DNA of 64,000 nt from Thiocapsa bogorovii (GTDB taxonomy: Bacteria > Pseudomonadota > Gammaproteobacteria > Chromatiales > Chromatiaceae): NCBI RefSeq assembly GCF_021228795.1, contig NZ_CP089309.1:1364001-1428000 (forward strand), given 5' to 3'. Under the pieces are notes generated by a model, which had not been told where the DNA came from, made no database searches, and was given only the letters and a program-made list of their open reading frames with translations. Each line of letters begins with the position of its first letter. Within the stretch, counting starts at the first letter, position 1. The translations under genes and the position numbers were made by a program. Of the stretch, positions 22,184 through 62,563 are shown piece after piece.

Positions 22184-22267
22184 TAAACCGCGTCCGGAGT
22201 GACCTTGGTCGGTTTGTGACGTGGTCAACCTCGGTGCCGCTCAAGAGGCTGGCGGTGACGCGGTTTA
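22184..22267. repeat. palindromic intergenic element, copy a
   Basis: Ends are TAAACCGCGTC (22184-22194) and GACGCGGTTTA (22257-22267), a perfect 11-base inverted repeat 84 bases across, starting three bases after the permease stop. It belongs to a family with copies at 37603, 37711, 47474, 50379 and 62373. It may act as a terminator or be a REP/MITE-like element. Confidence 0.75.
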
Positions 22268-22396
22268 GGATAAAACATTCGGGTCAATGGCTACGCACGC
22301 TTTGGCGTTTGGATTGTGCTGACGGTAGGAGGCGCAACCTGCGCCGATGGGTGGTTGTGCCTCGCACGGCTTGGTACAACGGCTTCCGGAATTCAC

Positions 22397-22762
22397 CTAG
22401 GCCGCATCTGCCGGCGTCTCCAGGAGCACATCGAGATGGATGGCGGCGAATGGACAAAGGACCTTACCGTCGCGGGTCTGCTCCACCAGACCCAGCTCGG
22501 CTAGCTTGGCCAAGTCTTCGTGGAGGGGTTCAAGGTCGCTCCCGGTCCGCCTCGCCAGTTCCTGCTCCGCGAGGGTTCCGGCACCCAGCAACGCTTGCAG
22601 CAGCGCCCAACGCCGCGCGGTCAGCCACTCGAAGAAGCCCTCAAACGATTCGAAATTGAGCCGCTCGCCTTGGTAGTCAACCGCCTGTGCGGCCCGCCCC
22701 GCGGCGCGCAGAGCGGAGCGCCAATCCGGTGAAACCGTGATCGTCAGAGTGCGTTTCGCCAT
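22397..22762 (-). CDS. HTH transcriptional regulator/antitoxin-like protein (HVO_A0114 type)
   Basis: 121 residues: a short beta start TLTITVSPDW, then a winged helix-turn-helix (WALLQALLGAGTLAEQELAR, GLVEQTRDGKVLCPFAAIHL). This is the type of small regulator regularly paired with DUF6516 proteins in toxin-antitoxin-like modules. Its start overlaps the 3' end of the DUF6516 gene by 19 bases, so the two are one operon. It probably represses the operon and may neutralise its partner; both points are inference from the family pairing. Confidence 0.7.
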   Translation of the reverse strand: MAKRTLTITVSPDWRSALRAAGRAAQAVDYQGERLNFESFEGFFEWLTARRWALLQALLGAGTLAEQELARRTGSDLEPLHEDLAKLAELGLVEQTRDGKVLCPFAAIHLDVLLETPADAA

Positions 22763-23031
22763 CGCTCGACCTCCGCAATGAAATCCGTGATCAACCGATC
22801 CACGTCGGTGAAGGTATATGGCCGCTCGATTCCCGAAAGGTGAAAATGATCGCCCTTGCCGCGCTCGTTGTCGAAACCGACGATGCGCTGACCCTTAACA
22901 ACGAACACCAGTCGATACTTGTAAGGATGGAGGCACGGCGGCACGGGCCGCGGCAATCGCCAAACCACTAACTCGATGATCCCGCCTTCCGATGTAACAT
23001 CTTTGAAGCGAGTCATCAGCTCGGCGTGCAT
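22744..23031 (-). CDS. DUF6516 family protein (putative toxin)
   Basis: About 95 residues with the family pattern IIELVVWRLPRPVP, YKYRLVFVVKGQRIVGFDNE, RGKGDHFH and YTFTDVDRLITDF. DUF6516 proteins occur beside HTH partners in putative toxin-antitoxin loci, with no established activity. ATG 23031 fits the family start; a TTG at 23067 would add 12 residues. No strong Shine-Dalgarno is seen. The pair sits antisense between an ABC permease and its likely adaptor. Confidence 0.7.
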   Translation of the reverse strand: MHAELMTRFKDVTSEGGIIELVVWRLPRPVPPCLHPYKYRLVFVVKGQRIVGFDNERGKGDHFHLSGIERPYTFTDVDRLITDFIAEVERWRNAL

Positions 23032-23154
23032 ATCAGTTCGGTGGCTTGCCGGAGTCAAGAGGATCAAGGGTCCAATCGACGTGACGGGTCTGCCCGTCGA
23101 TCGAACAAGTGTAGACCGAGCCGGAGTGATTGGACATCGCGCAATGAGATCTCC

Positions 23155-24363
23155 ATGTCCTTGAGTAAGCGACTGATCACCGGATTCATCGCCCTAACCA
23201 TCTTGGGCTTGCTGGCGCTCGCCCTGATGCCGTCTCCCGTGCCGGTCAGCGCGACCTTGGTTCGGCAGGACGTCTTCGTCGAGTCGGTTGAGGACGAGGG
23301 CCGCACACGCCTGCGCGATGTCTATACCGTCTCTGCACCGATCAGCGGCTATCTGCGCCGTGTGGAGCTCGAGCCCGGGGACCAGGTTGCCGCCGATCAG
23401 GTGCTGTTCGAGTTGGAGCCCCTGCCCGCGCCGGCACTGGACCCGCGCTCGCGCGGTCAGGCCCGGGAAGCGCTCGCCGCAGCACAAGCCCATCTGGAGG
23501 AGGCCGAGGCAAACCTGGCAGCCAGACGGACCGAATCCGAGCTGGCGCGCACCGAATACGACCGCAGCGAGACACTGCACCGGCGCCAGCTCATCTCGTC
23601 CGAGGAGCGGGGCCGACGGCTCGCGCAGCGCGACGCAGCCGCAGCGGCCGAGCAGGCAGCGCGACATGCCGTCGAAGTCGCTCAGTTCGAGCTCGAATCC
23701 GCCCGCGCCCTCGTGGAGATCGCCGACGGCAAGCGCTCGCCCGGCGACTACCCGGTCCTGGGTGTCCGCTCCCCGATCGACGGGGTCGTGACCCGACGGC
23801 ATCGCTGCTGCGAGGGGCCGATCGAATCCGGCGAGGCGGTCCTGGAGCTCGGCGACCTGGATGCACTGGAGGTCCAGGTCGACCTGCTGTCGGTGGACGC
23901 CGTGCGCGTGCGCCCGGGAATGCGTGTGATCCTGGAACGCTGGGGCGGGGAGGATGCACTCGAGGGACGGGTGCGGCTCGTGGAGCCCGCCGGGTTCGAG
24001 AAGATCTCCGCCTTGGGCGTGGAAGAGCAACGGGTGCCGGTCTGGGTCGAGATCGTCACACCGCGCGATCGATGGCGGCATCTCGGGGACGGCTATCGGG
24101 TCGAGGCACGCTTCATCCTCTGGGAGGGCGACGACGTGGTTCAAATCCCGACGAGCGCGCTGTTTCGGTACCGGGACCGCTGGGCGGTCTTCGTTGCCGA
24201 TCAGGGTCGGGCGCGCCTGCGATTGGTCGAGGTCGGGCGGCGCAGCGGTCTTTGGACCCAGATCACCATGGGGCTTGAGCCGGACGACATCGTCGTCACC
24301 CATCCGGGCGATCGGGTGCACGATGGAGCACACATCGCGGCCGAGATCCGGCCATACGCGTAA
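23155..24363 (+). CDS. HlyD-family periplasmic adaptor of an ABC exporter
   Basis: 402 residues. An N-terminal anchor (LITGFIALTILGLLALALMP) is followed by a biotinyl-lipoyl-like half YTVSAPISGYLRRVELEPGD. A long Ala/Glu/Arg coiled-coil hairpin spans roughly residues 100-190. The second half-motif is VLGVRSPIDGVVTRRHRCCE, followed by a beta-barrel and a membrane-proximal domain ending AAEIRPYA. ATG 23155 is the only start adjacent to the anchor. It would link the FtsX-type permease at 19817 to the envelope. The usual co-encoded ATPase is absent and the DUF6516 module lies between permease and adaptor. Confidence 0.85.
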   Translation: MSLSKRLITGFIALTILGLLALALMPSPVPVSATLVRQDVFVESVEDEGRTRLRDVYTVSAPISGYLRRVELEPGDQVAADQVLFELEPLPAPALDPRSRGQAREALAAAQAHLEEAEANLAARRTESELARTEYDRSETLHRRQLISSEERGRRLAQRDAAAAAEQAARHAVEVAQFELESARALVEIADGKRSPGDYPVLGVRSPIDGVVTRRHRCCEGPIESGEAVLELGDLDALEVQVDLLSVDAVRVRPGMRVILERWGGEDALEGRVRLVEPAGFEKISALGVEEQRVPVWVEIVTPRDRWRHLGDGYRVEARFILWEGDDVVQIPTSALFRYRDRWAVFVADQGRARLRLVEVGRRSGLWTQITMGLEPDDIVVTHPGDRVHDGAHIAAEIRPYA

Positions 24364-24407
24364 CGGCCACGCGCGCGAGGTCCTCTTTCATCGCACCAGC
24401 CGGTAGG

Positions 24408-24641
24408 GTGGACGAGGGCTTTGCCGCGGTCGGCACCAAGAATTTCGACAACCGCTCCTTCAGGCTGAACTTCGAGATCACCCTCGCCGTCGCGGACGGG
24501 CGCTTCGCGGCCGAGGTCGCAACCATGTTCGAGCGCGATTTCGCACAGTCGCAAGAAGTCGGCCCGCGGGCCTATGACGCCCTGCCGTTCCACCAAAAAG
24601 TCGGAGCAAAAGCCGCACGCCTGCTCGCGCCGATCTTGTAG
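24408..24641 (+). pseudogene. cardiolipin synthase (PLD family) C-terminal remnant
   Basis: 77 codons matching the end of a PLD-type synthase: FAAVGTKNFDNRSFRLNFEI, FAAEVATMFERDFAQSQEVG, ending ARLLAPIL. This is the segment just after the second HKD motif, whose HxK is already lost. The frame begins inside GTAGGGTGGACGAG, which resembles one arm of the hairpin at 39675. An intact homologue is at 57659-59098. Confidence 0.7.
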
Positions 24642-24816
24642 GTCGTGCCGGCGAAGGGACGCATCACTTGCGCCGAGAAAAGTGCCGAAGATGTTCGCCG
24701 GAAGCGAGCGCGAGGGGCCGCCGGGCTCTTCGCAACAGGCCGACGACGCAGACCTCAACGCCGGGTAAGTTTTCTGAAATAAACCGAACGGCGCCTGATC
24801 CATGCCGGGGGGCGCG
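24642..24816. other. intergenic, no gene seen
   Basis: 175 bases between two gene remnants, with no coding character. Confidence 0.35.
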
Positions 24817-25003
24817 TGAACCTTGATGTGGTCCTGGTGCTGGCCCTGTTGGTCGGCGCGATCCTGATGTTCGGCCTCGGTCGCCCTCGGGCCGATAACG
24901 TGGGTCTCCTGGTGATGATCGCGGTGCCCTTCACCGGGGGTTCGTCGTCGTTGTGACGACGATGTCGGTTGCACTGGTGCCTTGGCTGTTTCCGTTTTAC
25001 TGA
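24817..25003 (+). pseudogene. SLC13-type permease reduced to its two ends
   Basis: GTG 24817 begins VNLDVVLVLALLVGAILMFG, GRPRADNVGLLVMIAVPFTG, the N-terminus of a dicarboxylate/sulfate permease. Near 24940 the frame jumps, and FVVVVTTMSVALVPWLFPFY with TGA 25001-25003 is the C-terminus of the same kind of protein. Some 400-550 codons in between are missing. A full-length homologue of the broader family is at 60414. Confidence 0.55.
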
Positions 25004-25019
25004 GCGGCGCCCCCGTGCC

Positions 25020-25343
25020 TCAGTTGGAGTTGGGAAGTGGTCTATCGTCCAAGGCCAGTTCGTCGAGCGGCAGTCGTCGATGGCCTTCAACCACGGTAAG
25101 AACGGCAACGTCGTCGCCTTGCACGCGATAGACGATTCTGTAATTTCCCTCGACCAGTTCCCTGAAATCACTGCCGGGGAGCTCGGGCGGGGTGCGCCCC
25201 AAGCCGGGGTGATCCGCAAGGGCTTGGGACCGATCGATCAATCTGTCGATAAACCGCTCAGCGGTAGCCGGATCATCCCTCGCGATGTACTCCTCGATCT
25301 CTGCGAGCCGCTCAAATGCCTGATCGGTCCAGAGGACCTTCAA
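25020..25343 (-). CDS. ParE/RelE-superfamily toxin
   Basis: 107 residues with the typical fold order: KVLWTDQAFERLAEIEEYIA, then helix 2 with ATAERFIDRLID, LADHPGLGRTPPELPG, and the basic C-terminal strands RELVEGNYRIVYRV. Overlaps the stop of the antitoxin gene by four bases (ATGA), so translation is coupled. Family members inhibit gyrase or cleave mRNA on ribosomes; which applies here cannot be told from sequence alone. No truncation is seen. Confidence 0.82.
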   Translation of the reverse strand: MKVLWTDQAFERLAEIEEYIARDDPATAERFIDRLIDRSQALADHPGLGRTPPELPGSDFRELVEGNYRIVYRVQGDDVAVLTVVEGHRRLPLDELALDDRPLPNSN

Positions 25344-25642
25344 GCGACGGAGCGTCCTGCACGCCGCTCCGCGAGGCGCTCGCGAAGGGTTGCAGTGTCC
25401 ATGACCCGCCCGGCATCGGCGTCTCCGGCCCCGGCAAGCAGGGATTCGAAAAACCGCTCCTGATCACACATTCGATCGTATTCCGCCGGCGACAGGACGA
25501 CGCCCGCGGCCCGACCGTTCTGCGTAATGACGAGTGGACCGGCGCCGTCGACAAGTCGCTTCAGATGACGCGATATCTGAGTCTTGAACTCGCCGACAGG
25601 CACAATGCTTTCGGAAACCGAGATTGGTTGCATGACCATCAT
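25340..25642 (-). CDS. Phd/YefM-family antitoxin
   Basis: 100 residues. The N-terminal DNA-binding part reads VPVGEFKTQISRHLKRLV and GPLVITQNGRAAGVVLSPAE, the Phd/YefM signature. The acidic/Arg-rich C-terminus would wrap the toxin. It precedes the ParE-like gene with a four-base overlap. It should autorepress the operon, as is known for the family. Alternative ATGs at 25639 and 25633 would shorten it slightly. Confidence 0.82.
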   Translation of the reverse strand: MMVMQPISVSESIVPVGEFKTQISRHLKRLVDGAGPLVITQNGRAAGVVLSPAEYDRMCDQERFFESLLAGAGDADAGRVMDTATLRERLAERRAGRSVA

Positions 25643-25702
25643 TCCGTCTTGGATTAAGGCCTGAATTTAGGGCGGCACATCCTTTCTGTCAAAGGGCTCC
25701 TT

Positions 25703-26650
25703 CTAGACCACTCCCTCGATTGCCGCAGCCTCCTTACGCCGGTGGGCCACCAACGCGGCGACGGCGCAGGAGGCGAGGCGGCTCTGGACCGAGTCGGCAC
25801 GACTGGTGAGCGTGATGGGTACGCGTGCGCCGAGGACGATGCCGGCGGAGTCGGCGTTCATCAGGAAGGCGAGGCTCTTGGCGAGCAGATTGCCGGCTTC
25901 CAGATCGGGTACGACCAGGATATCGGCTTGTCCGGCAACGGGACCTCCGATCCCTTTGATCCTTGCCGCCTCCGGGCTGATGGCGTTGTCGAGCGCGAGC
26001 GGTCCGTCGAGGACGCCGCCGGTAATCTGACCGCGGTCGGCCATCTTACACAGTGCCGCCGCCTCTACGGTCGACTGAAGTTTGGGGTTGACCTTCTCCA
26101 TCGCCGACAGGATCGCCACCCTCGGGGTCTCGATCCCCAAGGCGAGCGCGAGATCGATCGCGTTCTGCACGATGTCGACCTTCTCCTCCAGGGTCGGGAA
26201 GATGTTGATCGCCGCGTCCGTGATGAAGAGGACGTTCGTGTGACCGGGCACGTCCATGATGAAGCAATGACTCAGACGCCGCGCGGTGCGTAGACCCGTA
26301 TCGCGTTTCACCACCGGGCCGAGCAGCTCGTCCGTACTGAGCGAGCCCTTCATCAGCATCTCGGCGCGGCCCTCGCGTACCAAGGTGACGGCCTTCTCGG
26401 CGGATGCGTGACTGTGCTCTGCGTCGACGATCTCGTAGGGCGAGAGGTCGATCCCAGCGTCCAACGCGGCGGCGAGGATCTTCTTGCGAGGTCCGACCAA
26501 GATCGGCGTGATGATGCCGGCCTTCGCGGCATCGACGGCCCCGCCCAAAGCCGCGGCGTTGCATGGATGGACGACCGCGGTCGGGGCCGCTGGAATGGTT
26601 GCGACGGCGGCAATCAGACGCTGAAAGTTGGTGTGCGTTGCGGTGTTCAT
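25703..26650 (-). CDS. phosphate acetyl/butyryltransferase family protein
   Basis: 315 residues of the PTA_PTB fold: FQRLIAAVATIPAAPTAVVH, AEMLMKGSLSTDELLGPVVK, RLSHCFIMDVPGHTNVLFIT, and KINP-like AMEKVNPKLQSTVEAAAL. It lacks the N-terminal MaoC/enoyl-CoA hydratase domain of the bifunctional form. It converts acyl-CoA plus phosphate to acyl-phosphate and CoA. No acetate kinase lies nearby. The CoA-disulfide reductase remnant is immediately upstream on the same strand, and both would draw on the CoA pool, so an operon is plausible. Confidence 0.82.
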   Translation of the reverse strand: MNTATHTNFQRLIAAVATIPAAPTAVVHPCNAAALGGAVDAAKAGIITPILVGPRKKILAAALDAGIDLSPYEIVDAEHSHASAEKAVTLVREGRAEMLMKGSLSTDELLGPVVKRDTGLRTARRLSHCFIMDVPGHTNVLFITDAAINIFPTLEEKVDIVQNAIDLALALGIETPRVAILSAMEKVNPKLQSTVEAAALCKMADRGQITGGVLDGPLALDNAISPEAARIKGIGGPVAGQADILVVPDLEAGNLLAKSLAFLMNADSAGIVLGARVPITLTSRADSVQSRLASCAVAALVAHRRKEAAAIEGVV

Positions 26651-26750
26651 GAAGCCGAGCCCCTTGGACTTGAATCAGCAGGCGGAGGTTGGGCGATGCA
26701 AGCAAGCCCGATGCAGGCAATCTCGGAGCCGACCGACGCTGGTCGCCTGT

Positions 26751-27777
26751 TCAGTCGAGCGCCTTGCTCAACTGCGAAGCGGCAATCAACAAGGGCGACC
26801 AGGAGGGACCAAACGGCGGCGCGTAGGCCAGGTCCAGGTCATAGATCTGCTCGGCCTTCATGCCGGCGTGGATCGCCGCCGCGGCCGTGTCGATCTTGTG
26901 CGCCGCCGCCTCGGGGCCGACCATGCAGCACCCGAGCAGCTTGCGGGTCTTGCGATCGCCGAGCAGCCGGACCGAGAGCTTGCCGCCGCCGGGATAGTAA
27001 CCGGCACGGGTCGAGCCGACGATCTCGGCGGTCACTGTATCGAACCCGGCCGCGTCGGCCTCCTCGCGCGACAGCCCGGTGCGTGCGACCTCGAGCCCGA
27101 AGAACTTGAACACGGCCGTACCGAGCACCGGAGGCGCCGGACGTTGGTAACCGAAGACGTTGTCGCCCGCGAGCTTGCCTGCGCGATTGGCGCGCAGCGC
27201 GAGCGGAAACCAGACCGACTCCCCGGTGATGGCGTGGATCGCGTCGGCGCAGTCGCCGGCCGCGTAGATGTGCTCATCGGAGGTTCGCAGGTACGCGTCC
27301 ACGGCGATCGCCCCGGCGGCCCCGAGCGCCAACCCAGCCGCAGCGGCCAACTCGGACTCGGGTCGAACGCCTGTCGCGACCAGCAACAGATCGGCCTCGA
27401 GCCTCGCCTCGGAGGTCTCGACGGCGATGCCCGAGCCCGTTCGCTCAATTGCCTCGACCCGCGTGCCCGGCAGCATCTCGACCCCGTGCGCCCTCGGCGT
27501 TGCGTCCGCCGACCTCGCGGCGGCCCGGATCGATCTTCAGGATCTCATGGCCGAGACGCTCGTCGATATTGCGCTCCTCGCGGAAACGCTGCGCGGAGAT
27601 GACGAGCAGATCGTCCATGTCCGTGTCCGGGGGAAGCTTGTAGGGCAGACCGCAAGCACCGTAGGAGACGTCCTGCGTCTTCTCCGGAACCACGATTTCG
27701 GCGTCGGGACGTGTCCTTCTGGCTTGACTCGCCGCGCTCATCCCCGCGGCCACGCCGCCGATGATCACCACTCTCAT
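26751..27777 (-). pseudogene. CoA-disulfide reductase-like flavoprotein, internally deleted
   Basis: ATG 27777 starts RVVIIGGVAAGMSAASQARR, with VSYGACGLPYKL carrying the active-site Cys. After about 95 residues (IDPGRREV) homology stops and resumes in another frame at GTRVEAIERTGSGIAVET. It then continues intact to the C-terminus (DAYLRTSDEHIYAAGDCADA, LDLAYAPPFGPSW). Roughly 115 residues covering the NAD(P)H Rossmann region are gone and the frame is shifted. The enzyme cannot be active. A complete paralogue with an added rhodanese domain lies divergently at 28058. Confidence 0.78.
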
Positions 27778-28057
27778 ACTCGCTCCTCGCGCTGGATTCC
27801 TTCTGGTTGGTTGCCGCGTCGATGGTAGCCACGGGGTGGGCGACCGACAAGGTCACGGGGTCTCCGTGAAGATCGGGATCGGTCGCCGGCCGACGCGAAG
27901 CCACGCTCGCAAGGGGCAGGACACCGCACGCGGACGCGCGGCCGCCGAGACACGGCGCTGGGAAGGGGTTTCCGGTAAGATCCCGCCATCGACATCGACA
28001 TGATGTCCCCTTGAATAAATGGGCTTTTCGCCTGAATCGCGATAGGAGAACGCAGCA

Positions 28058-29800: not shown

Positions 29801-30002
29801 CCGGCCGAGCTTGCTGGACAGCCAGGCGCCGACGGCGACACTGCGTTGCGCGGTCCGGGAGCGACGGCATGAACGGGGGGCGCCTGGAGCGATCGCGGGA
29901 GCGCTCGGGATCCGGCCTCCGGCAGCCCGCCTCCAGCGGCGTCGATCTCAAGCCGGTGGCCGAGGGCAGGCGACCGCAAGCGCGGCACATCCCGAGCGGC
30001 CC
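29801..30002. other. intergenic, no gene seen
   Basis: About 200 bases between the convergent flavoprotein and universal stress protein genes; no clear terminator found. Confidence 0.35.
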
Positions 30003-30440: not shown

Positions 30441-30641
30441 GCAGTTTGATCTCCGTTGAGCATCCGAACCGAGGGGTCCGAACGCATCGCACTCGGACAA
30501 GACCTCATCACGTCGTCATAGGCTATCCGCCCAGGTCGGCGTATCCTGTCGCGGCGGCTCCGCGCCCACGGTCATGGACCGGAGACCGTTTGCGAATCCG
30601 ACACTGCCCAAAAGGCTAAGTGCCATTATAGGAGAACAAGC

Positions 30642-31223: not shown

Positions 31224-31229
31224 TGCCCT

Positions 31230-31261
31230 AGGTTGGGCCGAGCGATAGCGAGGCCCAACCT
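31230..31261. terminator. bidirectional hairpin between hdeD and the FUSC gene
   Basis: Perfect 10-base stem AGGTTGGGCC / GGCCCAACCT with a 12-base loop, placed six bases after the hdeD stop and before the convergent FUSC stop. No T tract. The form also fits a REP-type palindrome. Confidence 0.6.
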
Positions 31262-31342
31262 GCGCCAATCACAACCATCCGCAGAACAAGGGACCGAAGC
31301 GATTCGAGTCGGATCTCCGTCAGCGGCATCGCGCGCCGCCGA

Positions 31343-35851: not shown

Positions 35852-37597
35852 ATGAGCCATGCCGCCCGAACCGGAGCCGCCATCTTCTTCGATGTTCTGA
35901 CCGACCTCGGGGTCGAGTATCTGTTCGGCCACACGGGCGGCGCGGTCATCCCCCTGCACGTCGAGTTGAATCGACGGATGCGCCGCCGCGACCCGGCACC
36001 CAAGTTCATCCTCTGCCGTCAGGAAGGCGGCGCCGGACATGCCGCGGAGGGCTATGCGCGGACGAGCGGACGGGTCGGCGTGGCGATCGCCACCTCGGGA
36101 CCGGGCGCGACCAACCTGGCCACGCCCATCGCGGATGCGCACAAGGACTCGATCCCGACGCTCTTCATCACCGGCCAGGTGCCGAGTGCGGCGATCGGCA
36201 CCGATGCCTTCCAGGAGGTCGATACCGTCGGCTTCACGCGGCCGATCTCCAAGCACAACTATCTGGTCAAGGATGTCCGCGACCTGGAGTGGGTGCTGCG
36301 CGAGGCCTATGCGCTGGCAACCCGTGGCCGACCCGGACCGGTCGTGGTCGACATCTGCAAGGACGTGCAGCTGGCCGAAACGAGCCGAGATCCGAGCGGA
36401 CAGAATGCGCCCCGGATCCGTCATCGCGAGCCGATCGCATTCGACCCGGTGAAGGCCGACGCCATCCTAGCCGCACTCGCCGCCGCCGAACGCCCGGTCG
36501 TGAAGGCCGGCGGGGGGGTCATCCATGCCAACGCGGCAGCGGCGCTGCGCTCGTTCGCCGAGCGTTTCGCCGTCCCGGTCACAACCACCTTCAACGCCCT
36601 CGGTGCCCTCCCCTTCGAGCTGCCGCACAACCTCGGCATGCCGGGCATGCACGGGACCATCCCGGCCAACTATGCCCTGCGCGATGCCGACCTGATCCTC
36701 TCGCTCGGCGGACGGTTCGACGACCGGGTCGCGGTGAAGGGTTTCGCCACCGGCAAGCGCATTGCGCATGTCGACATCGACCCCTCCGAGATCGACAAGA
36801 CCATCGCGACCGATCTGCACCTGGTCGCGGAGCTCGGTGACTTCCTCGAGCACGCCTTGAGCACCGGACAGGCCGCCGACCATGCCGACTGGCTCGCCCG
36901 AATCGCGCAGTGGCGCGAGCAGATGCCCAAACCCTATGGCCGGTCCGACTACATCAAGCCGCAGGCCGTCGTCGAGATCATCTCCGAGCTGACGGCGGGC
37001 GACGCGACCCTGGTCACGGGTGTCGGCCAGCATCAGATGTGGTCGGCGCAGTATTATCGCTTCCGCCGGCCGCGCCAGTGGGTCAGCTCGGGCGGGCTCG
37101 GGACCATGGGCTTCGGCCTGCCGGCAGCGATCGGCGCCTGGTTCGCCGACCCAGCCCACCCGCTCGTCCTGATCGACGGCGACGGCAGTTTTCAGATGAA
37201 CATCCAGGAGCTCGGCACCCTGGTCGCCAACCGGATCCCGCTGAAGATCTTCGTCCTGAACAACAGCTTTCTCGGGATGGTCCGCCAGTGGGAGGACATG
37301 ATGGACGAGGGTCATCACTACGAGACCTGTCTCGCCCGCGACGCGAGCTGTGATCCGGACTGCATGGACCTGGATCAGACCTGTCGGCGTCAGATCCCGA
37401 ACCTGACCGGCCTCAAATACGTCTATCCGCGCCTTAAGACCCAGCGCATCAAGCATCCGAAGGATCTGCGCGAGGGCGTCGCCCAAGCGCTGGCCGAGCC
37501 CGGCCCGGTCCTGGTCGATGTCTGGGTCGACAAGGCCGAGAACGTCATCCCCATGGTACGCCCGGGTCATCGCCTCGACCAGATGATCGAGTCCTGA
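35852..37597 (+). CDS. ilvB: acetolactate synthase large subunit-type ThDP enzyme
   Basis: 581 residues, three ThDP-family domains. The N-terminal PYR domain contains catalytic Glu58 in CRQEGGAGHAAEGYAR and GVAIATSGPGATNLATPIAD. The central domain includes FDDRVAVKGF. The PP domain has the ThDP/Mg motif IDGDGSFQMNIQEL followed by NN and FLGMVRQWEDMM. This matches biosynthetic acetolactate synthase, condensing pyruvate to acetolactate for branched-chain amino acids. An insertion with three cysteines (around DASCDPDCMDLDQTCRRQ) is unusual. No small subunit gene (ilvN) is adjacent, so this may be a paralogue. Confidence 0.85.
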   Translation: MSHAARTGAAIFFDVLTDLGVEYLFGHTGGAVIPLHVELNRRMRRRDPAPKFILCRQEGGAGHAAEGYARTSGRVGVAIATSGPGATNLATPIADAHKDSIPTLFITGQVPSAAIGTDAFQEVDTVGFTRPISKHNYLVKDVRDLEWVLREAYALATRGRPGPVVVDICKDVQLAETSRDPSGQNAPRIRHREPIAFDPVKADAILAALAAAERPVVKAGGGVIHANAAAALRSFAERFAVPVTTTFNALGALPFELPHNLGMPGMHGTIPANYALRDADLILSLGGRFDDRVAVKGFATGKRIAHVDIDPSEIDKTIATDLHLVAELGDFLEHALSTGQAADHADWLARIAQWREQMPKPYGRSDYIKPQAVVEIISELTAGDATLVTGVGQHQMWSAQYYRFRRPRQWVSSGGLGTMGFGLPAAIGAWFADPAHPLVLIDGDGSFQMNIQELGTLVANRIPLKIFVLNNSFLGMVRQWEDMMDEGHHYETCLARDASCDPDCMDLDQTCRRQIPNLTGLKYVYPRLKTQRIKHPKDLREGVAQALAEPGPVLVDVWVDKAENVIPMVRPGHRLDQMIES

Positions 37598-37602: not shown

Positions 37603-37687
37603 TAAACCGCGTCTAGAGTGAAATGCAGCATCGTTCACGTTGTGTCGAGATCAAGGATTTTTCCGACCTTTTCGGAGACGCGGTTTA
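37603..37687. repeat. palindromic intergenic element, copy b
   Basis: TAAACCGCGTC (37603-37613) and GACGCGGTTTA (37677-37687), perfect arms, 85 bases, six bases after the ilvB stop. The interior resembles copy d on the left side (GTGAAATGCA versus GTGACATGCA). Confidence 0.75.
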
Positions 37688-37710
37688 GAATTTAATTCTT
37701 TTGAATATTT

Positions 37711-37796
37711 TAAACCGTGCCGTCTCCAACAACCGTCGGAGCCGGCGCGGCCAAGCCCGTGCAAGCAACAACCCATACCGCATCGGGCGCGGTTTA
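37711..37796. repeat. palindromic intergenic element, copy e
   Basis: Second element in tandem with copy b: TAAACCGTGCC at 37711-37721 and GGCGCGGTTTA at 37786-37796, 86 bases, arms with one mismatch. It ends 24 bases before the Shine-Dalgarno of the WD40 gene. Confidence 0.65.
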
Positions 37797-38977: not shown

Positions 38978-39205
38978 GCCGCGGTTTAGCGATGGAAAGC
39001 GGTCGTGCAGGTTCAGGCGGGACCGACGCAGATAGGCAAAAAAATAGCCGGTTCCGAAATCGTCGACCGCCAGGAGAATGCCATGCTCGCGCAGACGCTC
39101 GAAGACGCCTGCCGCATCGCCCTCGCGCTCTATCGGAGCGCTCTCGATGACCTCGATCTTGAGCGCGAGCTGATCGGCCGGGAGACCGTTCTCCCGAAGC
39201 ACGCG
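38978..39205 (-). pseudogene. EAL-domain fragment (partial duplicate of the GGDEF/EAL gene)
   Basis: The frame gives RVLRENGLPADQLALKIEVI, DAAGVFERLREHGILLAVDD, FGTGY, then degenerates. It corresponds to the DDFGTGY region of the EAL domain in the gene at 41617-44926. The DNA of the two (about 38995-39205 and 41885-42085) is visibly alike at many contiguous blocks, for example TAGCCGGTTCCGAA and GTCGTCGACCGCCA. The fragment lacks all other EAL residues. Its end coincides with a solo arm of the palindromic element (38978-38986). It marks the far side of the dcm-vsr segment. Confidence 0.65.
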
Positions 39206-45292: not shown

Positions 45293-47476
45293 ATGCATGA
45301 GAATAGGCTGGAACGCGTGAACGTGGGCGGCCTGAAGGTCGCTCAAGCCCTCTACGACCTGGTCGAGCGAGACGTGCTCGCGGGTACCGGGATCAACCCA
45401 AATCACCTCTGGGGCGCCTTCGGCTCGATGGTGCGTGAGCTTGCACCGCGTCACCGTGAACTGTTGAATCGACGCGACGCCTTACAGGCGCGCATCGATG
45501 CCTGGCATCTGGAGCATCGTGGCCAGACGTTGGACCCAGGCGCGTATCGCGCCTTCTTGTCGGACATCGGCTACCTCGTCCCGGAAGGCCCGGACTTCGG
45601 CGTCACGACGGCGAACGTCGATCCGGAGATCGCCGAGATCGCGGGTCCTCAGCTCGTGGTGCCCGTGAACAACGCACGTTACGCCCTCAACGCTGCGAAC
45701 GCGCGCTGGGGCAGCCTTTACGATGCGCTCTACGGAACGGATGTGATCCCGGACACCGACGGGCTGGAGCGCGGCCCGAGCTACAACCCCAAACGCGGCG
45801 CCGAGGTCATCGCCCGCGCCGCCGCATTCCTTGACGAGGCCGCACCGTTGAACCGCGGCTCACACGGGGAGTCCTGCGGCTACCGGATCGAGGACGGCAA
45901 GCTGGTCGTCTGCCTGCCGGACAACAGCCAGACGATGCTGGCGGAACCCGGCCAGTTCGTCGGATACCGCGGCACCCCGGAGAAGCCGGATGCCGTCCTG
46001 CTGGTCAACCATGGCCTACATGTCGAGATCCGGATCGATCGCGAGCACCAGGTCGGTCGCGACAGCCCCGCGGGCGTGGCCGACCTGTTGCTGGAGTCCG
46101 CCATGACCAGCATCCAGGATTGTGAGGACTCGGTCGCCGCGGTCGACACCGAGGACAAGGTCGAGGTCTACCGCAACTGGCTCGGGCTGATGAAGGGCAC
46201 CCTCACCGCGCGCTTCCAGAAGGGCGGCAAACCCGTCGATCGCGCCTTGGACGAAGATCGGGTCTACCGCAACCCGGTCGGCGGCACCCTCGTGCTCCCC
46301 GGTCGTGCGCTCATGCTGGTCCGCAACGTCGGCCATCTGATGACCACCGATGCCGTGCTCGATGCCGACGGAAACGAGACCCCGGAGGGCATGCTCGACG
46401 CCCTGGTCACGGTGGCCTGCGCCCTGCACGACATCCATCCGAGCTTCGGCGCGCGTCGCAACTCGCGCACCGGCAGCGTCTACATCGTCAAGCCCAAGAT
46501 GCACGGACCCGAGGAGGTTCAGCTTGCGGTCGACATCTTTGCGGGGGTCGAGGATGCGCTCGGGCTCGCCCGCAATACGATCAAGATCGGCATCATGGAC
46601 GAGGAGCGCCGCACGACCCTTAACCTGAAGGAGTGCATTCGGGTCGCATCCGAGCGGGTCATCTTCATCAACACCGGCTTCTTGGACCGCACCGGCGACG
46701 AGATCCACACCGACATGGAGGCCGGCGCGGTGCTGCGCAAAGGCGACATGAAAACCGCGCCTTGGCTGCTCGCCTACGAAAACTGGAACGTCGATGTCGG
46801 TCTCGCTTGCGGTCTGCGCGGCCACGCCCAGATCGGCAAGGGCATGTGGACCATGCCCGACGAGATGCGCGCCATGGTCGAGACCAAGTCCGGTCATCCC
46901 AAGGCAGGTGCCAATTGCGCCTGGGTACCCTCCCCGACCGCCGCGACCCTGCATTCGATGCACTACCACCAGGTCGATGTGGCCGCCGTCCAAGTCGAGT
47001 TGGCCGCGGGTGGACCACGGGCCAGTCTGGACACCATCCTGCAGATCCCGCTCGACCCGGCGTGCGCCTGGAGTGCGGAGGAGATCCAGCAAGAGCTCGA
47101 CAACAACTGTCAGGGCATCCTCGGCTACGTGGTGCGCTGGGTCGATCAGGGTGTCGGCTGCTCGAAGGTACCGGACATCAACAACATCGGCCTGATGGAG
47201 GACCGCGCGACACTGCGGATCTCAAGCCAGCATGTCGCCAATTGGCTGCATCACGGGATCGTATCGCGCGAGCAAGTGATGGAGACGCTCAAGCGAATGG
47301 CGGCGGTGGTCGACGCACAGAACGCCGATGATCCTGTCTATCGCCCGATGGCCCCCGGGTTCGACGGCATCGCCTTCGAGGCCGCGGCGGACTTGATCTT
47401 CAAAGGCCGCGAGGCGCCGAACGGCTATACAGAGCCGACCCTGCACGCGATGCGCAGACGCCTAAAAGGGCATTGA
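45293..47476 (+). CDS. glcB: malate synthase G
   Basis: 727 residues, the usual G-isoform length. Start [23 protein letters not shown] barrel with [39 protein letters not shown] with the catalytic Arg/Glu region; [20 protein letters not shown]; and the C-terminal [15 protein letters not shown] with the general base Asp nearby. It condenses glyoxylate with acetyl-CoA to malate. No isocitrate lyase gene is in the window. ATG 45293 follows GGAGACCGACA. The stop codon lies inside an arm of a palindromic repeat. Confidence 0.95.
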
Positions 47477-47601
47477 ACCGCGCCTCGGGGCGACATGCGC
47501 TGTCTCCCCGGGATCAGTGTCCCGCGCTGCCGCAGGCTTCTCGGCTCGCGCGGCTCAAGTGGCGAGGGATTTCGACCGCCTTGCGGTTCAGGTGCGGTTC
47601 A
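47474..47601. repeat. palindromic intergenic element, copy g
   Basis: TGAACCGCGCC (47474-47484) begins with the glcB stop codon itself. The opposite arm GGTGCGGTTCA is at 47591-47601, preceded by an extra arm-like CTTGCGGTTCA at 47580-47590. The left interior (CCTCGGGGCGACATGC) resembles copy d (CCTCGGTGACATGC). Confidence 0.6.
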
Positions 47602-50378: not shown

Positions 50379-50463
50379 TAAACCGCCTCAACTCAGGCAC
50401 GCGTGGCTTCGGCCGCAGCCGATCCGTTCCAAAAAAGACACCGACCGCTCCGGACGCGGTTTA
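50379..50463. repeat. palindromic intergenic element, copy c (overlaps galE stop)
   Basis: TAAACCGCCTC (50379-50389) and GACGCGGTTTA (50453-50463), one mismatch in eleven, 85 bases. The right arm contains the galE stop codon (50461-50463, read on the minus strand). It sits between convergent kinase and galE genes, where a two-way terminator would be useful. Confidence 0.72.
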
Positions 50464-51474
50464 GCCGCCGAACCCCTCCGGGTTCTCCGATTGCCAGCGC
50501 CAGGTATCGCGCACCATGTCGTCGATCCCGAGCTCGGCCTCCCAACCGAGCTCCGACTTCGCGAGTGCGGGATCGGCATAACAGGCGGCGATATCGCCCG
50601 GACGGCGCGCGACGATCTCGTAGGGCACGGGCCGACCGCTCGCGCGCTCGAAGGCCGCGACCATATCCAACACGCTGTAGCCGTGTCCGGTACCCAGGTT
50701 GTAGACCACGACGCCGGGCCCCTGCGCGAGTCGATGCAGGGCCGCAAGATGTCCGCGGGCCAAATCGACGACGTGGATGTAATCCCGCACGCCGGTGCCG
50801 TCCGGGGTGGGATAGTCGTCGCCGAAGACGCGCAGTCGCCGCAGCTTGCCGACCGCAACCTGCGCGACATAGGGCATCAGGTTGTTCGGAATGCCGTTGG
50901 GGTCCTCGCCGATGCGCCCGCTCGGGTGCGCGCCGACCGGATTGAAATAGCGCAGCAGCGCGATGTTCCAGGTTCCGTCCGAGACGTGAAGATCGCGCAG
51001 GATCTCCTCGATAAAGAGCTTGGAGCGGCCGTAGGGATTGGTCGCCGACAGCGGAAACCCCTCCCGGATCGGCACCGTCGCCGGATCCCCGTAAACCGTG
51101 GCCGAGGAGCTGAAGACGATGTTCTTCACCCCGGCCGCCGCCATCGCCTCACAGAGCGTAATGGTCCCGCCGACGTTGTTGTCGTAGTAGGCAAGCGGGA
51201 TCTCGACCGACTCCCCGACCGCCTTGAGTCCGGCAAAATGGACAACCGCATCGAAGGCGCCGTCCCGAAAGATCGCGTCGAGTGCCGCACGATCACGCAG
51301 GTCCGCCTTGAAGAAGATCGGCGTCCTGCCCGTGATCTCGCCGACCCGCCGCAGTGATTCCTCCTTGCTGTTGCAGAGGTTGTCGACCACCACGACGTCC
51401 ATTCCCGTGGCCAGCATCTCGAGGCAGGTATGGCTGCCGATGTACCCCGCCCCGCCAGTCACTAGCACGCGCAT
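50461..51474 (-). CDS. galE: UDP-glucose 4-epimerase
   Basis: 337 residues of the extended SDR family. NAD-binding [20 protein letters not shown]; Ser in [11 protein letters not shown]; catalytic YGRSK (YxxxK); [20 protein letters not shown], the GalE hallmark; [20 protein letters not shown]. It interconverts UDP-glucose and UDP-galactose for polysaccharide or LPS synthesis. Complete and ordinary in length. It stands alone on its strand, ending in a palindromic repeat. Confidence 0.94.
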
Positions 51475-57592: not shown

Positions 57593-57658
57593 CTGAAGGC
57601 CGCAGGCTGGAGGCTGGGGGCTCAGCCTTCACCGACCCGGCCAACACCGCTCCGCCGA

Positions 57659-59098
57659 TCAAAGGTACGGCGAAAACAACCGCGCGAATCCGTCGCGCAG
57701 TTTTACCGGAATCGAGCGGCCGGCAAGGTCACCGAGCGTCAACTCCCGGCTCGCCGCGATCTTGGCGTCCACTAGCTCATGGAGCCGGCGCGACAGATCG
57801 CGATCATAGCATTCGAGGTTGTACTCGAAATTGAGCCGCAGGCTGCGTGCATCCCAATTCGCCGAGCCGAGAAACGACCAGATGTCGTCGATCAACATCA
57901 ATTTGGTGTGATCGAAGGGCGGCGGGGAGAGCAGGATGCGGCACCGCCCCTCCAGCAGCTGGTCGACTTGGGCTTGTGCGGCCCACTGCACGAGCTTCAG
58001 ATTGTTCTGCTCGGGCATCAGGATCTCGACCTCGACACCGCGCAAGGCCGTCACGTTGAGCGCGGCGATGAGGGTCTGATCGGGCAGGAAATAGGGCGTG
58101 ACGATCCGAACCCGCTCGCAGGCCGCGGTCAGCGCACCCAGGATCATGCGTCGGATCACGTCGAAATCCTCGTCGGGGCCGTCCGGCACCCCCCGCGCCA
58201 GGGTCGAACCGACGTGATCAGGCACCGGATACCAGGCATCCCCGCCCAGCCGCTCGCCAGTCGTGAAGGTCCAGTCCAGCGCGAAGGCCTCCACCAGAAA
58301 ACGCACCACCGGGCCTCGAACACGCAAATGTACGTCCTGGATCGGATGGCGCGGACAGGCTGCCGTCATGCATCCGACGCGAATATTCAGTCCGCCGGTG
58401 AAGCCGACGCGCCCGTCGGCCACCAGAATCTTGCGGTGGTTGCGCAAATTCAGGTATTGACTCTTTACCGGAAGCACGGAGGCCAGAAAGACCGCGCTCG
58501 GGATCCCGCGGCGACGCAAGACGCGCGGCATCGGCGGACGACTGTAACGCTGGCCGACACCATCGACCAAAACACGCACGGAAACCCCGCGGCGGTGCGC
58601 CCGCTCGAGCGCATCGGCAAAGAGTCCGCCGACGCTGTCGTTGTCGAAGATGTAGGTCGAGAATCCGATGGTCTCCTCGGCCTGATCGATCGCCTCCAGC
58701 ATTTGCGGATAGGCTTGGTCACCATCGATCAAAACATCGACCCGGTTACCGGCCTCCAGGGGCAAACGGGTCAGGGCGTCGCCCAGATGTCCGAGCCGGA
58801 CCAGGCGCGGATATTGGGCCTCCAAAACGCGATTCGCGCAACGCTGCCCGGCCAGCTCCGCGCGATCGCTGGCTTCCGAGGTTTGCGGACGGAGCCGATG
58901 GGCCTTGCGGGTGATGCGGTTGATCCCGAAGAGCCAGTAGAGCACGAGGCCGACCACGGGCGCCAACATGACAAGCCCCGCCCAACCGACCGTTGAAGGC
59001 ACATCGCGACGGCCGAGCAGCAGATGCGCCACGGTGGCGATCCGAGCAGCGAGCTCCAACCCCAAAAGTGCACCCATCCAGAGGGTCGGGTCATTCAT
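57659..59098 (-). CDS. cls: cardiolipin synthase (phospholipase D family)
   Basis: 479 residues. Two N-terminal membrane helices (PLDc_N: LWMGALLGLELAARIATVAH, VGWAGLVMLAPVVGLVLYWL). First HKD motif is HRKILVADGRVGFTGG, second is HTKLMLIDDIWSFLGSANWD, followed by DARSLRLNFEYNLECYD. Both active-site halves are intact. It transfers phosphatidyl between phosphatidylglycerol molecules to make cardiolipin. Lies alone on its strand; a remnant of a second cls gene is at 24408. Confidence 0.92.
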   Translation of the reverse strand: MNDPTLWMGALLGLELAARIATVAHLLLGRRDVPSTVGWAGLVMLAPVVGLVLYWLFGINRITRKAHRLRPQTSEASDRAELAGQRCANRVLEAQYPRLVRLGHLGDALTRLPLEAGNRVDVLIDGDQAYPQMLEAIDQAEETIGFSTYIFDNDSVGGLFADALERAHRRGVSVRVLVDGVGQRYSRPPMPRVLRRRGIPSAVFLASVLPVKSQYLNLRNHRKILVADGRVGFTGGLNIRVGCMTAACPRHPIQDVHLRVRGPVVRFLVEAFALDWTFTTGERLGGDAWYPVPDHVGSTLARGVPDGPDEDFDVIRRMILGALTAACERVRIVTPYFLPDQTLIAALNVTALRGVEVEILMPEQNNLKLVQWAAQAQVDQLLEGRCRILLSPPPFDHTKLMLIDDIWSFLGSANWDARSLRLNFEYNLECYDRDLSRRLHELVDAKIAASRELTLGDLAGRSIPVKLRDGFARLFSPYL

Positions 59099-59259
59099 CC
59101 GTAGGCATCAAGCAAGAGCCAGCTCCTTTCGGAGCCGCCGAAAGCGCCGAGGGATCGGCGCCGGTTCCCCGGGACAGCTTTCGATCTGCAAAAGCCGGAT
59201 TCCTGATTGACGTCCGTCACACCTGGTCCAAGCCGGCCGGTCACCGACCGCGCTCTCGC

Positions 59260-60033
59260 CTACCGGGCCGCCAAGGTCAGCTGATTCTGCTCGTCGTCGA
59301 TGGTGACACGGAATCGGCCGAGCAGGCTCATCCCCAAGAGCGCATTTCCCCCGAGACGCGTGTCGTCGATAAAGGCTGCGGAGACCCCTTCGACCCGCGT
59401 CCCCCCGAGCCACACGCCGCTCAAGGTGCCCAGCCGCGCATCCACGGTCCCGTTGGCGGTTTGCACGCTCTGCATCCGCAGATCGTTCGGGGAGATCCCG
59501 AGCGGGCCGATCAAGGAGGCCGGCAGGACCACATGATCCGAACCCGTGTCGATCAGCAACACCCGCTGGACGCGCTGGCCGTTCGGCCCCTCGATGCTTA
59601 GGTTCACGGTGTGCGAGGTTCCCTGCCGCTGTGTCGGCAAGACGATCGAGTCCCCGGGTTGGTCATCCTCGCCATCGGGCGAGGCGTCGGATGGAAAACC
59701 CGATCCTTGGTTTTCAATGATCAGCGGCGGTGCGACCACGGCAACCTTCTCGCCGAGAATGATGATTCGATCGACCCCGCCGTTCTCGGTCTGAACGAGC
59801 ACGTGGTCGAAACCATCCAGCAACAACCGAAGACGCGGCACCAGCTCGGCACCCTCGGCGCGACCCTCCATTTCCGCCGTTTGCTCGATGCCGCGCACCT
59901 CGAACCCGTGCTGGGCCATCAGCCGTTCCAGCTCCTCCTGGATATTCACCAGCGGCGCCGTGTCTGCGGTTCGAACCAGAGTGCCGCAGATCCAGCAGAG
60001 GCTGACCAGGACCCGACGAACAAGGTGCTTCAT
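59260..60033 (-). CDS. secreted retropepsin-like aspartic protease
   Basis: 257 residues with a signal-like N-terminus (LVRRVLVSLCWICGTLVRTA). The C-terminal 120 residues form a single retropepsin-type lobe: VQRVLLIDTGSDHVVLPASL with the catalytic DTG, VQTANGTVDARLGTLSGVWL, and GGNALLGMSLLGRFRVTIDD. This resembles the clan AA periplasmic aspartic proteases of proteobacteria, which act as dimers. The middle (about 110-135) is an acidic linker. Substrate unknown. It precedes cls on the same strand with a 161-base gap. Confidence 0.82.
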   Translation of the reverse strand: MKHLVRRVLVSLCWICGTLVRTADTAPLVNIQEELERLMAQHGFEVRGIEQTAEMEGRAEGAELVPRLRLLLDGFDHVLVQTENGGVDRIIILGEKVAVVAPPLIIENQGSGFPSDASPDGEDDQPGDSIVLPTQRQGTSHTVNLSIEGPNGQRVQRVLLIDTGSDHVVLPASLIGPLGISPNDLRMQSVQTANGTVDARLGTLSGVWLGGTRVEGVSAAFIDDTRLGGNALLGMSLLGRFRVTIDDEQNQLTLAAR

Positions 60034-60413
60034 GACTCCGGACTCCGGACGCGAACGGTGCGAGAGATGAACCTAAAGACTAGCAGTGCGCCGGGTCCAG
60101 AGCTACAGGCCGGATCCTCCCGACACCGAGGTCGGAGACACGGAAACGCACCCTCACAGGTCGTGCGCCACGGCAAGACCTCGAAGAAAACCGGGAAAAA
60201 CCGGATCCGTTTCATTATGATGACCGGTCTTTCGGTGGTCCTTGACGGGGCGGAGACAACAGCCCCTCACGCGTCGAGCCCGGACCGCATCATTATGAAC
60301 GAGACGTCGTCCCGCGACACGGCACGCCGAAACAACAGGTCCGATCGGCACTGCGTCAAAGGCTCGGCACCGAATCCGCTGCAAGGACCCGAACACACAG
60401 AGGACACTCAAGC
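60034..60413. other. 380-bp divergent intergenic region
   Basis: No gene. TTTCATTATGAT (60210-60221) and ATCATTATGAA (60290-60300) share the block TCATTATGA, spaced about 80 bases, a possible operator pair. It should contain promoters for the protease and the SLC13 permease. Confidence 0.4.
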
Positions 60414-62375
60414 ATGCTCGCCGCTTTTCGCGCCCTGACCAAGATCGATCTCGCCGCGGCCGTCTTCGCAGTCGTCGGGTTTTACCTCGCCGGAATCGTC
60501 CCGTCCGTGGAGATCGCTTGGGTCGTCGGATTTCTTCTCCTGACCATTTTTCTGTTCGCCTTCGAGGTGGTCACCGTCGATGTCGCCGCGATCAGCATCA
60601 TGGTCCTGCTCGGTCTGACCGGACTCTTTGCGCCCTTGATGGGACTCGAGCAGGGTTTGGTACCGGTCGAGCATCTGTTCGACGGCTTTGCGAGCAACGC
60701 CGTGATCTCCATCATCGCGGTCATGATCATCGGCGCCGGGCTCGACAAGACCGGGATCATGTCGGAGGTGGCGGGTTTCATTATGCGCATCGGTGGAAAA
60801 ACCGAGTCCCGCATTATCCCGCTGATCTCAGGAACGGTCGGAGGGATCTCGAGCTTCATGCAGAACGTCGGAGCCGCGGCACTCTTCCTGCCCGTGGTCA
60901 GCCGCATCTCGGCCCGCACGGGGTTGCCGATGTCGCGCCTTCTGATGCCGATGGGCTTCTGCGCCATCCTGGGCGGCACCATCACCATGGTCGGCTCCAG
61001 CCCGTTGATCCTGTTGAACGACCTGATCCTTACCTCGAACAAGGCGCTGCCGGCGGGCACCGCGCCGATGGAGACCTTCCAACTCTTCGACGTGACTCCG
61101 ATCGGGATCGCATTGCTCGTCGCCGGTATCCTCTATTTCGTTCTCGCCGGGCGTTTCGTCCTGCCCTCGCGCGCAAACGAGATGATCAAGGGCAGCGATA
61201 CCAGTACGTACCTCGCCGAGACCTACGGGCTGTCTTCCTTCGAGATCCGCGAAGTCAGACTCCGCCCGGGCAGCGCGCTGGTCGGCCTGAGTGTCGACGA
61301 GCTCGAGCAGACCTGGCGCGTGCGAGTCATCGCGGTCGAAAAGGGCGATGGCCTGCGCCTCGGGGCCGACGGGGTGGACCGCTCTCTCGGTATCGAGCCC
61401 GGCACCACGCTCGGCCTGCTCGGCACGGAGGAGAAGCTCGCGCGCTTTGCCGAGGATAACGCCGTTGACGTCAAAGCCGACCTCGAATTGTTCTCCGAGG
61501 CGATGTCGAACACCAAAGCGGGCATCGCAGAGATCGTCATTCCGCCCGGCTCCAGCCTGATCGGCAAGACCGCGCGCGACGTCTGGTTGCGCAAGACCTA
61601 TGGCTTGTCGCTGCTCGCCATCAATCGCGGCGGCACGCAGATCACCTTCAACACCGGCGGCGTGCGCAATACGCCGCTCCTCGCCGGCGATGCACTGGTC
61701 GTCCACACGACCTGGGCGGATCTCACACGCCTGACCAAGGACCGCAATTTCGTCGTGGTCACGACCGAGTATCCGCATGAGGAACTGCGTCCGCACAAGG
61801 TTCGCGCTGCTCTTGTCTTCTTCGTGATCACACTGGCCCTGGTGCTCTTCACCGATCTGCGCCTCTCGGTCGCATTGCTGACCGGGGCCATGGGTATGAT
61901 CCTGGCGGGCGTGCTCTCGATCGACGAGGCTTACGAAGCGGTCAGTTGGAAGACGGTCTTTCTGTTGGCCTCGCTCATTCCGCTCGGGCTCGCCGTAGAG
62001 GCCAGCGGCACCGCTGCATGGATCGCGCAGCAGACGCTCGCCGGGCTCGGGGACGTGCCCGTGTGGGTCATCCAGGCCGCGCTTGCGGTACTCGCCACCT
62101 TCTTCACGCTGGTGATGTCCAACGTCGGCGCGACAGTCTTGTTGGTGCCCCTGGCGGTCAACATGGCACTCGGTGTCGGCGCCAACCCTGCCGTGTTCGC
62201 CTTGACGGTCGCCATCGCCACGTCGAACTCCTTCTTGATTCCGACCCACCAGGTGAACGCGCTGCTGATGGGACCCGGGAATTACCATGTTGTCGATTTC
62301 ATGCGCGCCGGCGGGATCATGACGATCCTCTTTTTGGTGGTGGCGCTGACCATGCTTAATCTGGTCTTTGGCTGA
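60414..62375 (+). CDS. SLC13-family permease with two TrkA-C (RCK_C) domains
   Basis: 653 residues. Membrane halves flank a cytoplasmic middle. The N half contains SSFMQNVGAAALFLPVVSRI and ILGGTITMVGSSPLILLNDL, with the SNA-like NVG motif. The middle has two TrkA_C units (about 275-350 and 365-440: VRLRPGSALVGLSVDELEQT, IVIPPGSSLIGKTARDVWLR). The C half includes LVMSNVGATVLLVPLAVNMA and SNSFLIPTHQVNALLMGPGN. It takes up divalent anions such as sulfate, selenate or dicarboxylates with Na+; the TrkA_C pair is typical of the sulfate-type branch. The stop codon is the first three bases of a palindromic repeat. Confidence 0.88.
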   Translation: MLAAFRALTKIDLAAAVFAVVGFYLAGIVPSVEIAWVVGFLLLTIFLFAFEVVTVDVAAISIMVLLGLTGLFAPLMGLEQGLVPVEHLFDGFASNAVISIIAVMIIGAGLDKTGIMSEVAGFIMRIGGKTESRIIPLISGTVGGISSFMQNVGAAALFLPVVSRISARTGLPMSRLLMPMGFCAILGGTITMVGSSPLILLNDLILTSNKALPAGTAPMETFQLFDVTPIGIALLVAGILYFVLAGRFVLPSRANEMIKGSDTSTYLAETYGLSSFEIREVRLRPGSALVGLSVDELEQTWRVRVIAVEKGDGLRLGADGVDRSLGIEPGTTLGLLGTEEKLARFAEDNAVDVKADLELFSEAMSNTKAGIAEIVIPPGSSLIGKTARDVWLRKTYGLSLLAINRGGTQITFNTGGVRNTPLLAGDALVVHTTWADLTRLTKDRNFVVVTTEYPHEELRPHKVRAALVFFVITLALVLFTDLRLSVALLTGAMGMILAGVLSIDEAYEAVSWKTVFLLASLIPLGLAVEASGTAAWIAQQTLAGLGDVPVWVIQAALAVLATFFTLVMSNVGATVLLVPLAVNMALGVGANPAVFALTVAIATSNSFLIPTHQVNALLMGPGNYHVVDFMRAGGIMTILFLVVALTMLNLVFG

Positions 62376-62470
62376 ACCGCGTCCTCGGTGACATGCATTG
62401 TCGACGTCAAACGGGGCCTCGACCCAAACAACGAGGCCGGCGAGACGCGGTTCAGGATTTTTTTTATTCT
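62373..62470 (+). terminator. palindromic element copy d followed by a T tract
   Basis: TGAACCGCGTC (62373-62383), beginning with the permease stop codon, and GACGCGGTTCA (62444-62454), perfect arms. A T-rich run (TTTTTTTATTCTTTCTTT) follows directly. This copy therefore has the full layout of an intrinsic terminator, though with a large 60-base loop that can fold internally (GGCCTCG/CGAGGCC at 62415-62438). Confidence 0.65.
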
Positions 62471-62535
62471 TTCTTTCTAAAACAGCGTCGGCTGGGACGG
62501 GCTTGGAATCACGCGAGGGCGAGACCCGAATGAAG

Positions 62536-62563
62536 ACAGTGCATGTCGTGCGAGACGCGGTTC
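62536..62563. repeat. solo end of the palindromic element (copy h)
   Basis: ACAGTGCATGTCGTGCGAGACGCGGTT-type end in opposite orientation to the left end of copy d (ATGCATGTCACCGAGGACGCGGTT on its minus strand). It finishes eight bases before the AAA+ ATPase start, so it lies in that gene's 5' untranslated region. Confidence 0.55.

Follow-up and report, generated by a model that had tools for sequence, protein, structure and literature searches.

The window studied here, a 64,000-nucleotide stretch of the Thiocapsa bogorovii chromosome (positions 1364001-1428000 of 5,649,927 bp), carries a set of short palindromic modules that lie at or close behind the stop codons of genes, the latter predicted with a purpose-written script. 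An earlier note had listed six elements with the ends TRAACCGCGTC and GACGCGGTTYA (R, purine; Y, pyrimidine), all of which are present. A single plus-strand module of 84 bp (22184-22267) starts 3 nt past the stop of gene 19817-22180, and 5 nt past the stop of gene 35852-37597 begins a pair, made of a plus-strand GTC-type module of 85 bp (37603-37687), an AT-rich spacer of 23 bp (37688-37710) and a minus-strand GCC-type module of 86 bp (37711-37796). The other three of the five units share their first three bases with a stop codon, so that the proposal that the stops of galE, the SLC13 gene and glcB form part of an arm was borne out: a plus-strand module of 84 bp (47474-47557) begins with the TGA of the malate synthase G gene (glcB, 45293-47476), a minus-strand module of 85 bp (50379-50463) begins, on its own strand, with the TAA of galE (50461-51474), and a plus-strand module of 82 bp (62373-62454) begins with the TGA of a CitMHS/SLC13-type transporter gene (60414-62375).

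Some boundaries had to be redrawn. The element at glcB is real and had been extended to 47601 by taking a later end, and the one at 62373 is the first half of a pair like that at 37603 and 37711, followed by a T-rich spacer of 24 bp (62455-62478) and a degraded minus-strand module of 86 bp (62479-62564). This second module includes, as its outer arm, one of the two ends formerly read as solitary (62536); the other (38978-38988) stays a lone end with no catalogued partner. The motif RAACCGCGTC has 9 matches in the window against 0.67 expected, of which the one at 9290 falls within a predicted gene and is not part of a module. No match to Rfam was found in the window at the gathering threshold.

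Anatomy, abundance and pairing of the modules

The modules form a large family in this genome. The exact two-arm pattern matches 136 times on the chromosome and its reversed control not at all, and a looser pattern gives 241 matches. We catalogued the modules, with lengths of 80-90 bp allowed, in 60 spaced 20-kb stretches together with the window (1.264 Mb, 22% of the chromosome) and found 110, or about 490 chromosome-wide by extrapolation. Their spread is uneven, with 12, 10 and 9 modules in the single 20-kb stretches L182, L205 and L197 (G000:C1 near 3.10, 5.26 and 4.51 Mb) and none in many others. Addition of 295 modules from 120 loci of related genomes gave a joint set of 405, in which two clusters, the GCC type (147) and the GTC type (125), account for 272.

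Each module consists of complementary arms flanking roughly 60 bp of interior, whose sequence varies and whose length is almost fixed. The arm is counted as 12 bp because a pyrimidine precedes the left end in 108 of the 110 own modules and a purine follows the right end in 107. Module lengths fall within narrow limits (one of 81 bp, four of 82, six of 83, 35 of 84, 40 of 85, 19 of 86, three of 87 and two of 89), and an open-length search that required only TRAACC and GGTTYA, at 36 to 166 bp, returned 71 pairs at 82-87 bp and 0.22 per length elsewhere. The left-end signature first noticed in window elements is general among oriented copies, reading approximately C-R-G-N-G-C-G-N-N-A-T-G-C after the left arm (positions 12-24), with G-G-A-G before the right arm.

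Modules commonly occur as inverted pairs. Among neighbours less than 60 nt apart, 119 of 126 are in plus-minus orientation (2 plus-plus, 5 minus-minus), and groups of such close neighbours hold 59 of the 110 own modules. A GTC-type and a GCC-type module are joined by 92 of 118 plus-minus spacers; read from the GTC side, these 92 are 49% T and 35% A, often take the 23-bp form AAATTTTATATTTTTTAATATCT, and contain TTTT in 74 cases, the T-rich spacer following the GTC-type module. Paired modules resemble each other more than single ones do, with mean distances of 0.249 vs 0.310 in cluster 57 and 0.298 vs 0.319 in cluster 61, and perfect complementarity over 11 bp is equally frequent in both (0.64 paired, 0.65 single). 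One paired module, in L197, carries exactly at its inner TA an insertion sequence of roughly 1.74 kb, which has a DDE_Tnp_1_4 transposase and TAGCCCG ends (4867-6607 of that stretch; G000:C1:4516867-4518607), an insertion sequence that was found at seven places in the own sample, one of them cut by a stretch end.

Constraint and compensation in the arms

The arms change far more slowly than what lies between them. We searched for modules by their interiors only and recovered 275 full-length copies (255 already catalogued), with some bias remaining from models trained on arm-detected copies. In these, 2.7% of arm sites depart from the allowed consensus, a figure that excludes absent arms (7 copies lack one), and the interiors depart from the column consensus at 23% and 26%. 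Downstream of prfB, one 84-bp module is common to six species, with a mean pairwise difference of 4.5% in the arms and 29.9% in the interior. A comparison of 49 orthologous module pairs, doubtful orthologues included, gave 70 changed arm sites out of 1078 (13 matched double and 44 single changes), and 400 of 1698 interior sites had changed in those 27 pairs whose members are equally long. No convincing case of an inverted interior was seen at orthologous sites.

Many of the changes in the arms are compensatory. Compensatory doubles, with the number expected for any double change under independence in brackets, were 6 (0.6) at pair 1, 46 (7.1) at pair 2, 5 (0.2) at pair 4, 27 (2.8) at pair 5, 8 (0.5) at pair 6, 1 (0.0) at pair 7 and 133 (53.0) at pair 10; there were none at pairs 3, 8 and 9 (expected at most 0.2). 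The doubles at pair 10 stand for few events, because this pair largely separates the two main clusters, and those at pairs 4, 5 and 6 are spread over 5, 22 and 7 different clusters. Among arm mismatches, A-C is as common as G-U (57 vs 62 overall, 24 vs 25 for the transcript strand), a balance in favour of DNA-level pairing.

Gene ends, empty sites and distribution

The own sample holds 80 units, of which 76 could be classified by gene context (2 others lie at edges and 2 overlap predicted genes): 49 lie between tandem, 22 between convergent and 5 between divergent genes. Divergent regions make up 26.5% of the available room and are avoided (p about 1e-5). In 37 of the 76 own units, and in 87 of 178 classifiable units among the 199 of relatives, the first three bases of the module are exactly the stop of a gene, compared with about 15% of non-coding YTAR sites, a yardstick that still includes the modules' own sites. 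The enrichment at gene 3' ends that the earlier note asked about is supported. The own stops shared with modules are TAA in 30 cases, TGA in 7 and TAG in 1, whereas all sampled stops comprise 599 TGA, 202 TAG and 167 TAA. Many genes thus end inside a repeat: within the 22% of the genome that was sampled, module ends make up 30 of the 167 TAA stops.

The earlier note had suggested that the element supplies the stop codon, an idea that finds no support as a general rule. Of eleven purL loci ten are readable, and all of these stop at the same residue position: five have a module or a left-end remnant at the stop and five have none, the codon there being TAA (4) or TGA (1). In three loci (L259, L261 and L265), only the left end of the module is left after purL, where it acts as the stop, and the next reading frame follows directly. 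At the empty site of L147/L160 a TAA is already present. At both of these sites there is good support for insertion into a stop that was already there. At glcB, module sequence is found in 7 of 11 loci with TAA (4), TGA (2) or TAG (1) in place, and the C-termini of the four proteins without it vary by a few residues at most. A module lies at the galE stop in 2 of 11 loci; in a carrier without the module's first T, the frame continues three codons into the module, and whether the stop preceded insertion is ambiguous for this gene. If TA is what the module targets, a TRA in frame at the joint would go back to a TAA or TAG that was there before, an argument that does not extend to the TGA cases.

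Empty orthologous sites, which had been proposed as evidence of mobility, do occur. When the flanks of all units examined were compared, six low-gap cases emerged, spread over five sites and always involving pairs, and three sites are clean (L042/L188; L099 against L159 and L032; L147/L160). Each of the three reads CTAA when empty and has TA at both ends when the pair is present; this TA also belongs to the module palindrome, in which variants of the form TG...CA still match from one side to the other. The sites of L039, L085 and L083/L180, and the comparison of a window pair with a Thiocystis locus, are too diverged for an exact reading. At L117/L205, a pair in the relative corresponds to an exact single module in the own genome, and a genome of another genus holds two lone modules that are 97.6% identical over 83 bp and dissimilar outside.

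The family has a narrow and patchy distribution. Nine of 38 genomes, among them the own one, had the strict pattern; all nine are of the same genus, of which two members had none and one a single copy. A genus member with one module genome-wide, for the patterns used, carries it at L245 (G005:C16:57793-57876), where it starts at a TGA that apparently ends the preceding frame, as could be expected of a relic. Across the bacterial family the looser pattern had matches in 21 of the 146 genomes, which fall in 10 of the 61 genera, and copy numbers ranged from 0 to 507; single matches to it may be due to chance because the reversed control matched once in each of four genomes. At least 80 loci come from named genomes, those listed being Thiocapsa, Thiobaca, Thiocystis, Lamprocystis and a Chromatiaceae metagenome-assembled genome. 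In a sample of the class (369 genomes, 365 of them from other families) the modules were seen in the own genome only, and the viral contigs searched gave no match.

Origin of the modules and their relation to known repeats

We consider it likely that the modules are a non-autonomous mobile hairpin, similar to a REPIN or a miniature inverted-repeat transposable element (MITE), which inserts at YTAR targets and is moved by an enzyme encoded elsewhere. Such an enzyme would recognise two 12-bp ends, probably as folded DNA, and would place the modules in YTAR sites, for the most part two at a time in inverted orientation with an AT-rich spacer between them. As AA follows the target TA in the module, insertion into TAA or TAG would leave TAA and an unaltered protein, and insertions in promoters and genes would be lost. 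We propose that these harmless insertions at stops, together with the loss from promoters and genes, account for the excess at stops and the rarity between divergent genes. A pair could then be reduced to an exact single when the stretch between repeated arms is deleted or when one of its halves decays.

Several observations weigh against this reading. The matched TG...CA variants are not explained by a plain TA target duplication, and the closest own copies are 7% apart, so that recent movement is not seen in the own genome. There is no replichore bias (11 vs 8 composite pairs). Pair 11 has no excess of compensation (1 vs 1.8 expected), and the arms are not kept everywhere, since a recognisable full right arm is missing at glcB in 3 of 7 loci and only the left end is kept at purL in 3 of 5. 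The nine galE orthologues without a module end in TGA rather than TAA. The genes of candidate enzymes lie apart from modules: for the Y1 transposase genes, 14 in the own genome and 27 examined out of 86 matches in relatives, the nearest module is at least 992 bp away, and the four own DDE_3 genes have no module within 900 bp, other DDE families not having been searched. A parent element was not found as lone outward end pairs in 2.27 Mb, nor around the four DDE_3 genes. Separately, a Y1 transposase gene in L022 (1900-2170) lies beside short repeats of its own, of the GTAGGTCGG/GTCGGGCTGAAGCCCGAC type, which are distinct from the module family.

The modules could also be a MITE whose movement depends on a DDE transposase and duplicates a TA target; the mobile unit would then be the composite pair, bounded by terminal inverted repeats of some 24 bp, and its inner arms would be no more than subterminal copies. 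We regard this as possible, if doubtful: the TA flanking the unit at the three clean empty sites and the signature common to both outer ends of pairs fit it, whereas it does not account for compensation within each module, pairs 2 and 10 and the inner arms included, nor for the movement of lone modules, and the DDE_3 genes offer it no partner among those searched. It is unlikely, in our judgement, that the module is a mobile palindrome acting as a ruler, with ends held about 84 bp apart (a distance that, from its length, may correspond to eight helical turns), an enzyme that favours stop codons, where insertion is nearly free of cost, and a host that keeps some hairpins, the prfB module of six species among them, as structures of the 3' end, with the interior left free to change.

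A role as a dispersed transcription terminator or messenger RNA 3'-end structure, also suggested in the earlier note, would have the hairpin, which starts at the stop codon and has an AT-rich stretch behind it, end or protect transcripts and be kept for that reason. The position of modules right after stops, the avoidance of divergent regions, the conserved prfB arms and the TTTT of oriented spacers speak for it. The interiors of 150 sampled modules, however, fold no better than shuffles (mean z -0.24), the loop enclosed by the stem is some 60 nt long, and the anatomy of an intrinsic terminator, a stable short-loop hairpin followed by a T tract, is lacking. Nor is G-U preferred over A-C on the transcript strand, and single modules in tandem regions have no sense bias (17 same, 14 opposite); an apparent bias of 45 same to 9 opposite arose from requiring a module within 30 nt of the stop and was discarded. 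In the 15 nt after the hairpin, singles have TTTT in 11 of 54 cases and AAAA in 12, and the 13.6 kb between 37400 and 51000 contain 9 predicted terminators, as against 9.0 in shuffles. The terminator role, like the stop-supplying one, is not established, and we think it improbable. Equally improbable to us is that arm complementarity is a by-product of mutation, in which replication switches templates between the arms and so corrects one by means of the other, pairing having no function. Matched double changes in unrelated copies and the equal numbers of G-U and A-C mismatches would suit such a DNA-level process, which leaves the slow change of the arms and the fixed length unexplained.

The mobile hairpin that we favour resembles known repeats in several respects. 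MITEs with a TA target, such as RUP, Correia and ERIC, are short inverted-repeat elements present in many copies at TA sites; the present elements differ from them, as generally described, in being a modular palindrome pair, and no parent element with the same ends was found. A likeness to integron attC sites was set aside because the ends of the modules do not fit the usual attC consensus. Replacement of existing palindromes, reported for IS1272 (PMC5678879), was likewise set aside, as the clean empty sites lose no sequence.

In REPINs and BIMEs, inverted doublets of repetitive extragenic palindromic (REP) sequences are the moving unit (PMC3116915), and the modules share with them this inverted doublet, the near-constant spacing of conserved ends, the compensatory changes and doublets more alike than singlets. 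They differ in that each half is an 84-bp palindrome with a non-folding 60-bp interior, in their end sequence, and in the lack of a linked RAYT (Y1) gene among the Y1 loci examined. The GTAG and CGTC REPs lie mostly between tandem and convergent genes, form head-to-head dimers, and have ends reported, for GTAG, to provide the TAG stop of flanking open reading frames (PMC3733652). Placement, stop codons at the ends and head-to-head dimers are shared features, and the coincidence with stops is not new in kind, because GTAG REP ends have already been reported as stops. Those REPs, however, measure 20-40 bp, their loops span a few bases and their GTAG or CGTC tag is unpaired (PMC3733652), unlike the modules, which measure 84-86 bp and have CGTC, often in the form CGCC, within the paired arm. 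The TnpA-REP and IS200-IS605 transposases recognise folded DNA hairpins (PMC8266576), and recognition of this kind would explain the compensation in the arms; the modules differ by the absence of a GTAG motif, of a linked Y1 gene among those examined and of replichore bias. In the open-licence literature we found nothing that joins purple sulfur bacteria with repetitive extragenic palindromic elements, and a description elsewhere is possible.

The modules therefore resemble known mobile hairpin repeats and belong by anatomy to none of the described families, being distinguished by a near-constant 84-bp module with a free interior, a YTAR target and a palindrome-within-pair design. Because its copies run into the hundreds, empty sites exist and related genomes are numerous, this family offers a way to study mobilisation, the constancy of length, the preference for stop codons and any later use of such elements by the host at the ends of genes.

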